NCBI GenBank assembly: GCA_028242535.1 | Contig: JAOJYB010000008.1 | Span: 1-44,328, forward strand | Reading direction: 5' to 3' | Origin: Candidatus Nitrosopelagicus sp. | Lineage (GTDB): Archaea; Thermoproteota; Nitrososphaeria; Nitrososphaerales; Nitrosopumilaceae | Length of the DNA stretch: 44,328 bases | Part shown: positions 8,759 through 32,963 of the stretch, in pieces | Layout of the letters: each line of letters starts with the position of its first letter | How positions within the stretch are numbered: the stretch's first letter is position 1 | The notes under the pieces: model-generated | Told to the model about the DNA's origin: nothing | Databases searched by the model: none | Seen by the model: only the letters and a program-made list of their open reading frames with translations | Made by a program: the position numbers and the translations under genes

Positions 8759-9168
8759 AATTCATCATCATTATTTGTTTTTTTAAATTTATCTGCAATT
8801 GAAATAAATTTTCCATCCTTTTCAACATTAATTTTATTTTCCATTCTAATAGAAAGTCCTACAGATCTAAATAAAACTAGTAATTTTCCACCATCCAATG
8901 TTTCATTAATATCACCTGATGAGATCAATTCACCTAATTTTTCAATAATGATTTTGGATTCATTTGGAAATTGATACTCTGCATTTTGTAATACTTCCAT
9001 ACCACGATAACCTAAACTATTCACTACATAATCACGTAACGAAAGTTTTGGTTTTTCATTTTCTTCACTTTTATTTTCATCTAATTTATCTTGCATGGAA
9101 AGGTTTTTTTGCATTTCAGCTAATCGTTTAGCCTTAAGAATATCTAATTCTTTATCTTCATCACTCAT
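8755..9168 (-). CDS. PDCD5/TFAR19-related DNA-binding protein
   Basis: 137 residues. The N-terminus has the family hallmark, a charged helix of type LDILKAKRLAEMQKNL (residues 8-23). A linker follows, then a helical core (VLQNAEYQFPNESKIIIEKLGELISSG) corresponding to the LxxVKPExAxxVExxLIQLA region of archaeal PDCD5 homologues. The C-terminal tail is lysine-rich and acidic. Archaeal members bind DNA non-specifically or associate with translation. The protein is somewhat longer than the usual 110-125 residues because of its linker. It overlaps rtcB by 4 bp at its start and the 105-residue gene by 4 bp at its end. Confidence 0.7.
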   Translation of the reverse strand: MSDEDKELDILKAKRLAEMQKNLSMQDKLDENKSEENEKPKLSLRDYVVNSLGYRGMEVLQNAEYQFPNESKIIIEKLGELISSGDINETLDGGKLLVLFRSVGLSIRMENKINVEKDGKFISIADKFKKTNNDDEL

Positions 9169-10613
9169 CCTTTGATCACCCCAATTGGAACTAATTTAGC
9201 AACTTTAGTCGCGATTCCAAGATTATGAGATACATTAACAACAGCATCAACATCCTTGTATGCTTGAGGTGTCTCTTCAACCACACCATCTCTTGTTAAA
9301 GATTTTATAAAAATGCCTTTATCATTAAGGGATTTTTTGACTTCAGATTCTGTAAAGTCACGTCTTGCTTTTGACCTAGACATCATTCTACCAGCACCAT
9401 GAGCTGTTGAACCAAAACTTGCAGACATTGAATTCTCACTACCTAAAAGAATCCAACTTCCAGTCCCCATAGAACCTGGAACCAAGACAGGTTGACCAAG
9501 ATCCCTATATTTTGAAGGGACCTCATCCATATTTGCTGGAAAAGCACGTGTTGCACCCTTTCTATGTACTACAAGATTTTTTTGTTCTCCATTAATTTTG
9601 TGTTTTTCAACTTTAGCAATGTTATGTGCTACATCGTAGACTAATTTCATATCTAAATCAGATTCAGATTGTGAAAAAACTCTTTCAAAAGATTTTCTTG
9701 TCCAGTGAGTTATCATTTGTCTATTACTCCATGCAAAATTTAATGCTGCAAACATTGCTTTTCTATAAGATTCACCTTCCTCAGAGGCATTTGGAACACA
9801 CGCAAGTTCTCTATCTGCTAAATTAATGCCATATTTTTCTTGTACCTGTTCAGAAATTCTAAGATAATCACTACAAACTTGATGACCAAATCCTCTAGAG
9901 CCACAATGAATCAATACAGTAATAGTACCTTCTTGTATTCCCATTCTTTTTGCAGCTTCTTCGTCATGAATTTCTTTTACACGTTGAACTTCAAGGAAAT
10001 GATTTCCAGATCCTAAACTTCCTAGTTGTGGAAGCCCACGTTTTCTTGCTTTGTCAGATACTTTATTTGGATCAGCGTTCGCTATTTGTCCATTTTCTTC
10101 ACAAACATTTGCATCATCATTTGTTCCATATCCATTATCAATCGCCCATGAAACACCTTTGACTAAAACTTCATCTAATTCAGACTGAGTTAACCTTACA
10201 GCGCCCTTTGAACCTACACCAGATGGAATAGATTTGAAAAGATCATTAACAAGTTCACCTAGTTTTGGTCTTACTTGTTCTTCAGTAAGATTTGTTCGTA
10301 ATAATCTAACACCACAATTAATATCATAACCAACTCCACCAGGACTAATCATTCCTTCTTCAGCATCCATAGCAGCTACTCCACCAACAGGGAAACCGTA
10401 TCCTTCATGACCATCAGGTAAAACTATTGCATGTTCTTGGATTCCAGGTAAAGTCGATACATTGATAGCTTGTTTTAATGTTCTATCAGTCATCATTTTT
10501 TGCAGCAATGTTTCATCAGCATAGATTGTGACGGGTACTTTCATTCCCAAAGAAGAATCAGCATCAATTTGATATTCATTTTCACCAATTTTTTTTGGTT
10601 TTAAATCAGTCAT
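9165..10613 (-). CDS. rtcB: RNA-splicing ligase RtcB
   Basis: 482 residues, standard archaeal length and without an intein. The metal-binding region includes PDGHEGYGFPVGGVAAMD (from residue 66) and GGVGYDINCGVR, giving Asp97 and the metal-bridging Cys100. Later come IHCGSRGFGHQ and STAHGAGRMMSRSKAR, which contains the histidine guanylylated during catalysis. RtcB joins 2',3'-cyclic phosphate and 5'-OH ends, closing tRNA exons after intron removal. That is directly relevant here, because tRNA-Leu in this window appears to hold two introns. First gene of a three-gene, 4 bp-overlapping operon. The start at 10613 faces the divergent SDR gene 58 bp away. Confidence 0.97.
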   Translation of the reverse strand: MTDLKPKKIGENEYQIDADSSLGMKVPVTIYADETLLQKMMTDRTLKQAINVSTLPGIQEHAIVLPDGHEGYGFPVGGVAAMDAEEGMISPGGVGYDINCGVRLLRTNLTEEQVRPKLGELVNDLFKSIPSGVGSKGAVRLTQSELDEVLVKGVSWAIDNGYGTNDDANVCEENGQIANADPNKVSDKARKRGLPQLGSLGSGNHFLEVQRVKEIHDEEAAKRMGIQEGTITVLIHCGSRGFGHQVCSDYLRISEQVQEKYGINLADRELACVPNASEEGESYRKAMFAALNFAWSNRQMITHWTRKSFERVFSQSESDLDMKLVYDVAHNIAKVEKHKINGEQKNLVVHRKGATRAFPANMDEVPSKYRDLGQPVLVPGSMGTGSWILLGSENSMSASFGSTAHGAGRMMSRSKARRDFTESEVKKSLNDKGIFIKSLTRDGVVEETPQAYKDVDAVVNVSHNLGIATKVAKLVPIGVIKG

Positions 10614-30895: not shown

Positions 30896-31016
30896 TGGAG
30901 GAGGAGGGATTCGAACCCTCGAACTCCTGAGAGACGGGATCACCCATTATTATGATCTTAAGTCCCGCGTGTCCAAAAGCATAATGCTTTCTTTGGCCAG
31001 GCTTGACTACCCCTCC
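30896..31016 (-). tRNA. tRNA-Leu (TAA) with two probable introns
   Basis: Minus strand, 121 nt. Acceptor GGAGGGG/CTCCTCC, T arm GAGGG/CCCTC, long variable arm (CTC-TCAG-GAG) as in class II leucine tRNAs, discriminator A. Anticodon stem CGGGA/TCCCG encloses CTTAAG + A (anticodon TAA), interrupted by 16 nt at position 37/38 (30941-30956). A second insert of 20 nt at 30971-30990 splits the 3' strand of the D stem (GTC pairs with G|AC). Removing both leaves 85 nt, exactly the expected mature length. Both inserts can form hairpins compatible with bulge-helix-bulge splicing. Confidence 0.85.
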
Positions 31017-32226: not shown

Positions 32227-32877
32227 CTAATCCCACTTTGACCAAGCGGCCATCCATCTGTATGTCCAGGTTGTAAGTTTACAACCTAAAGCCGCAAATG
32301 TACAAGCTAGTACTGCTCCAGCACCTGCACCAAGTGCAACTGGGCTATTGTAGAACTTTCCTACCTGCGGTTCTATCGGGGTCATATATGGTGGTAACGT
32401 CGGTCTTGGATACTTGAATGCAGTCTCTAGTGGATCAGCCACTGTGATCAAATTGACCATGTTGAATAGTGGTAATGACATTCCAACTAAGACTCCGCCG
32501 AACAGTATCAGAGAGTGCTTATTCTTCTTTGTTGCCCAGTACGCCAAATCCAACAGCATTGCTGATGGTAGCCAAACTGGTGTAACGATGAAGTCATATG
32601 GGTAACCTAATGCGAACCATGCACCTTTTGCAATCCAAGTGTAGACTGTCATGATAAGTGCATAATACGTTGCGGTTCCTGGAACTCCAGTGAAGGTGAG
32701 ATAGTAACACGCACCTACAGTGAGCATAAGTGTTTGAGATATTGAGAATACTACAAACGATGTCCAGGCCCAATCAGTATAGAAGATGTAGTCTCCTGCG
32801 TTAATTGTTAGCAGAGTTGAATTGACTGCGACTACTACTATGAATAAATAGTGAGTACATCGTCTAAGCCAGACCAT
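32227..32877 (-). CDS. amoA: Ammonia monooxygenase subunit A
   Basis: 216 residues from ATG 32877 (MVWLRRCTHYLFIVVVAV), identical in length to thaumarchaeal AmoA. Five or six membrane helices and the marker stretches YTDWAWTSFVVFSISQTLML, GVPGTATYYALIMTVYTW, GYPYDFIVTPVW and TYRWMAAWSKWD identify the archaeal CuMMO A subunit with confidence. AMO oxidises ammonia to hydroxylamine in the membrane. A longer frame from 32934 exists but would include the TATA-like box at 32899-32908. That box is 27 bp before 32877, so the shorter start with a leaderless mRNA is chosen. Downstream (32049-32226) are pyrimidine-rich runs that may end transcription. Confidence 0.99.
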   Translation of the reverse strand: MVWLRRCTHYLFIVVVAVNSTLLTINAGDYIFYTDWAWTSFVVFSISQTLMLTVGACYYLTFTGVPGTATYYALIMTVYTWIAKGAWFALGYPYDFIVTPVWLPSAMLLDLAYWATKKNKHSLILFGGVLVGMSLPLFNMVNLITVADPLETAFKYPRPTLPPYMTPIEPQVGKFYNSPVALGAGAGAVLACTFAALGCKLTTWTYRWMAAWSKWD

Positions 32878-32898
32878 GAAAATATTCCTGTCAGTTAG

Positions 32899-32908
32899 TA
32901 TATAAAAA
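32899..32908 (-). promoter_or_regulatory. TATA-like box of amoA
   Basis: Minus-strand TTTTTATATA, centred about 27 bp before the amoA ATG. It predicts a transcription start at or next to the A of the start codon. Confidence 0.6.
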
Positions 32909-32963
32909 TTTGGGAAATTTACGAGATCGTGCATACGAAATCGTGACTAGATTGGATAAAAGG

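Follow-up and report, generated by a model that had tools for sequence, protein, structure and literature searches.

Introduction

Thaumarchaeal tRNAs with noncanonical introns, or with several introns, have already been published, and the tRNA-Leu(UAA) described here adds a case to a known type. The tRNAscan-SE 2.0 paper reports 107 noncanonical introns in Thaumarchaeota, together with genes that carry two or three introns, and tRNA-Leu(UAA) is not singled out in its main text (PMC8450103). A multi-intron tRNA-Leu(UAA) has also been described in Caldiarchaeum subterraneum, along with a tRNA-Thr(GGU) whose introns are situated at 24/25 and 45/46 (PMC3293823).

The locus considered here lies on a contig of Candidatus Nitrosopelagicus sp. 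(JAOJYB010000008.1), of which the whole stretch analysed, 44,328 nt in length, is referred to as the window. Positions 30896-31016 of the window are interpreted as a tRNA-Leu(UAA) gene with two archaeal protein-spliced introns, a reading to which we assign a probability of about 0.97.

Results

The pre-tRNA gene occupies 121 nt on the minus strand (30896..31016), as defined by its coordinates and homologues, and its reverse complement reads, in the order exon^intron^exon^intron^exon, GGAGGGGTAGTCAAGCCTGGCCAAAG^AAAGCATTATGCTTTTGGAC^ACGCGGGACTTAAG^ATCATAATAATGGGTG^ATCCCGTCTCTCAGGAGTTCGAGGGTTCGAATCCCTCCTCCTCCA. Exon 1 (30991..31016, minus strand; 26 nt) covers tRNA positions 1-23 and comprises the 5' strand of the acceptor, the 5' strand of the D stem, the D loop and G23. 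It is followed by intron 1 (30971..30990, minus strand; 20 nt), which falls between positions 23 and 24 within the 3' D-stem strand. Exon 2 (30957..30970, minus strand; 14 nt) spans positions 24-37, with the end of the D stem, the 5' anticodon stem, the anticodon TAA and G37, and is separated by intron 2 (30941..30956, minus strand; 16 nt), at the canonical position 37/38, from exon 3 (30896..30940, minus strand; 45 nt), which contains positions 38-73: the 3' anticodon stem, the long variable arm, the T arm, the 3' acceptor strand and A73. CCA is not encoded at the 3' end. The 85-nt spliced form folds as a class II tRNA-Leu in the ARAGORN cloverleaf, with the anticodon UAA, a long variable arm, a 3-bp D stem and A73. 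The same product would result if the D-arm cut were moved by 1 nt or the 37/38 cut by up to 3 nt; the junctions were set at 23/24 and 37/38 because the homologues and the splice motif fix them there.

The first-pass annotation had placed a 121-nt gene at exactly these coordinates, leaving the strand unstated, with one intron in the 3' D-stem strand and another at 37/38, and had stated that the removal of 16 and 20 nt leaves exactly 85 nt; the exon and intron lengths, the homologues and the motif all agree with this. Its further claim, that the leucine features emerge only when both inserts are taken out, is borne out by ARAGORN, which calls a tRNA-Leu(taa) once both introns are removed and makes no call in default mode if either is kept. 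The unspliced gene was missed by default searches of the window with both ARAGORN and the Rfam tRNA model, which found six other tRNAs; with the Rfam model the T arm of the raw gene alone scores, at 14.2 bits. No Rfam intron family was found at the locus, the inserts being 20 and 16 nt long. In intron mode ARAGORN proposed a tRNA-Met with one intron for the unspliced gene, which was rejected as an artefact.

This failure of standard gene finders is what would be expected of a degenerate pseudogene or a tRNA fragment broken by insertions. Such an origin is nevertheless extremely improbable, as the gene aligns at 82-100% identity through the family, with compensatory changes, and no second tRNA with a UAA anticodon was found in the complete same-genus genome G026, where the other leucine tRNAs carry UAG, GAG, CAG and CAA. 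UUA accounts for 43% of the leucine codons in the long ORFs of the window. Since the only UUA-decoding tRNA found in G026 is of this type and the codon is so frequent, the interrupted gene would have to yield a working tRNA, its processing being deduced from this need. The gene is very probably already annotated in tRNA databases.

Several other tRNA genes were noted in the course of the searches. The same genome carries tRNA-Ser(GGA), tRNA-Leu(CAA) and tRNA-Ser(CGA) on contigs C4, C2 and C12 (L078, L079 and L080), each with an intron of approximately 15 nt at or near 37/38, and without intron mode ARAGORN miscalled the tRNA-Ser(GGA) as tRNA-Pyl. In G026, introns of approximately 41 and 46 nt were predicted by ARAGORN in a tRNA-Met-like (CAU) gene and a tRNA-Tyr gene, respectively (L319 and L321). 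Within the window, an ORF for a D12-class adenine DNA methyltransferase (PF02086; 31185-32048) adjoins the 3' end of tRNA-Thr(GGT), beside amoA (32227-32934), whose presence agrees with the Nitrosopelagicus assignment.

At the exon-intron junctions, a bulge-helix-bulge motif has a 4-bp helix between two 3-nt bulges, and a relaxed version forms without one of the flanking helices. At the D-arm intron, the 4-bp central helix arises from the pairing of CCAA in the exon with TTGG in the intron, with the bulges AG^A and AC^A, and the inner stem AAGCA/TGCTT provides 5 bp closed by a 3-nt loop. Only one pair remains of the outer helix, giving the relaxed HBh' form; the relaxed motif proposed in the first-pass annotation is thus recovered. 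Of 200,000 shuffled versions of the 20-nt insert, 6 equalled this motif, and a perfect 4-bp central helix is present in 58 of the 72 homologues as against 0.55% of shuffled introns. For the 37/38 intron, the anticodon stem serves as the outer helix, the core is CTTA/TGGG (including two G-U pairs) and the bulges are AG^A and TG^A; this motif is retained, with changes in length, in most of the order.

The placement of the D-arm junction was examined using 72 distinct insert-bearing homologous sequences, each contributing three D-stem pairs (216 cells). With the cut after position 23, 215 of the 216 cells are paired and 71 sequences have all three pairs, whereas a cut shifted elsewhere gives at most 178 paired cells and at most 35 sequences with a full D stem. 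The pairs co-vary across the insert, as GTC/G^AC, GCC/G^GC, ATC/G^AT, GTA/T^AC, GCA/T^GC and GCT/A^GC. A chance origin is excluded by the rarity of the motif among shuffled sequences and by the covariation of D-stem bases on either side of the insert.

The same alignment bears on whether the 20 nt might instead be retained, forming a larger D loop that closes by pairing of GTC (10-12) with the GAC at the 3' end of the insert. In the genome studied here these bases are indeed able to pair. However, the pairing fits only 16 of the 72 distinct homologues, compared with 71 for the spliced D stem, the fold leaves a 3-nt gap between the D and anticodon stems, and there are sister genomes without the insert; retention is therefore very unlikely. 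A fold of this kind, with the 20 nt as a normal D loop, had been named at the outset as one of the observations that would overturn the intron, and it is refuted by the comparative evidence.

A 131-bp query matched 54 of 61 sampled relatives, and matches close to full length were present in all sampled genera of the family as well as in several further families of the order. A pattern scan was also carried out over 300 genomes of the class plus 41 from the family to which G043 belongs; among the matches listed, and with D loops that depart from the pattern left uncounted, an interrupted D arm is the usual state in the order. Most of the sampled relatives within the order have a D-arm intron at this site, and the insert is mostly missing in the other classes of the phylum and in many of the Euryarchaeota examined. 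The first-pass annotation had considered two introns in one tRNA, one of them disrupting the D arm, to be uncommon; that view does not hold here, as the arrangement is normal throughout the order.

A different D-arm intron of tRNA-Leu(UAA) was seen in the families f13, f18, f19 and f23 (L085, L088, L091, L095, L109, L110, L123 and L124). These introns fit the 21/22 register, two bases from 23/24: all eight of the sequences tested form a 4-bp core at 21/22, in which exon GGCC or GGTC pairs with intron GGCT, GGTC, GATC or GACC, as against 0-2 pairs at 23/24. The insert of a further tRNA-Leu(UAA)-like sequence, L052 in G058, was rejected as a D-arm intron as it fits neither register; its best 4-bp cores lie further 3', pointing to an intron near the anticodon stem.

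Natural alleles without the introns were also found. Four genomes of a Nitrosopumilus-like genus (g31; L111-L114) and a named Nitrosopumilus record (L224) carry an 85-nt tRNA-Leu(UAA) with neither insert, and in L111-L114 the inserts are precisely absent. L111 and the intron-bearing L116 are taken to be the same locus, given 5 mismatches over the 85 exon positions and near-identity of the sequence on either side. In L045 and L047, the 37/38 intron is missing and the D-arm insert is present.

Relaxed specificity is a property of the heteromeric alpha2beta2 splicing endonuclease, and cleavage at the D-arm intron would need it because the outer helix is a single pair. A single catalytic (alpha) EndA subunit is encoded in the genome (G000), on contig C12; it carries PF01974 (E 4e-32) and the N-terminal domain, and its best matches are the Sulfolobus and Aeropyrum EndA proteins and, among solved structures, 2cv8 and the Aeropyrum-type heterotetramer 3p1z. 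Its Lys52 aligns with the Aeropyrum loop lysine (chain residue Lys44), and the loop bearing that lysine has been reported to confer cleavage of relaxed motifs (PMC6379350). Two PF01974 genes, one of them lower-scoring, were found in most of the 31 genomes searched; the second protein, present in most same-genus genomes, is divergent at the DHAPF motif of the alpha subunit, which holds the catalytic histidine, as expected of a putative structural beta subunit. Endonucleases of the alpha2beta2 type have been attributed to Thaumarchaeota (PMC4090602). Of the heteromeric enzyme raised in the first-pass annotation, the catalytic alpha subunit is in the genome and a second subunit in most same-genus genomes, but a beta subunit was not found in G000, plausibly owing to the incompleteness of that assembly (81% complete). 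The RtcB tRNA-splicing ligase (482 aa; PF01139, 594.6 bits, E 1.8e-178), which had also been placed at 9165-10613, is indeed encoded there (9165..10613) on the minus strand, and is the enzyme that would be expected to join the exons.

Discussion

From the anatomy, the motifs, the covariation, the natural intronless alleles and the presence of both EndA alpha and RtcB, we infer the following course of processing. In the transcript, the D-loop CCAA (20-21) would pair with TTGG near the 3' end of intron 1, leaving AG^A and AC^A as 3-nt bulges beside the 4-bp helix, topped by the 5-bp intron hairpin. Both bulges would be cleaved by the heteromeric splicing endonuclease, presumably with use of its beta subunit, and G23 would be ligated to A24 by RtcB. 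The D stem (10-12 with 23-25) would probably form only after G23 and A24 have been joined. Intron 2, beside the anticodon, would be excised likewise with the anticodon stem as the outer helix, to give an 85-nt product predicted to decode UUA.

The less expected aspects, as judged from the genomes compared, are that one noncanonical intron has been kept across the order and that the D-arm introns of deeper families fit another register, 21/22. A further such aspect is the joint absence of both introns in some Nitrosopumilus genomes, which could be explained if a spliced copy had taken the place of the gene. A broader scenario may be put forward tentatively, at somewhat below even odds, in which the D-arm intron is ancestral to the ammonia-oxidising archaeal order, the D arm is a hotspot with registers 21/22 and 23/24, and some Nitrosopumilus lost both introns in a single step by recombining with a spliced tRNA copy (RNA-templated loss). 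The order-wide homologues, together with the double-intronless alleles at the same locus, provide a clean set for studies of how tRNA introns are kept and lost. There is also a practical consequence: the genomes of an abundant marine group may seem to be without an essential tRNA since default searches miss the gene.

In comparison with known systems, the introns of this gene resemble the thaumarchaeal introns reported with tRNAscan-SE 2.0 in being short, in having bulge-helix-bulge motifs and in occupying sites outside 37/38 (PMC8450103). The likeness to Caldiarchaeum subterraneum is closer still in isoacceptor, as the same tRNA is multi-intronic there and the D arm is among the noncanonical sites of that genome (PMC3293823). 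In same-class families outside the order (f18, f19 and f23), among which Caldiarchaeum was not recognised, tRNA-Leu(UAA) instead has a D-arm intron that fits 21/22 and not 23/24. The Thermoproteales (Pyrobaculum and Thermofilum) also have tRNAs with two or three introns, the same splicing logic and the same type of enzyme (PMC3218864, PMC8450103). However, in the accounts given in those papers many tRNAs are affected and the introns increased rapidly inside one order, whereas here a single specific intron has been kept order-wide.
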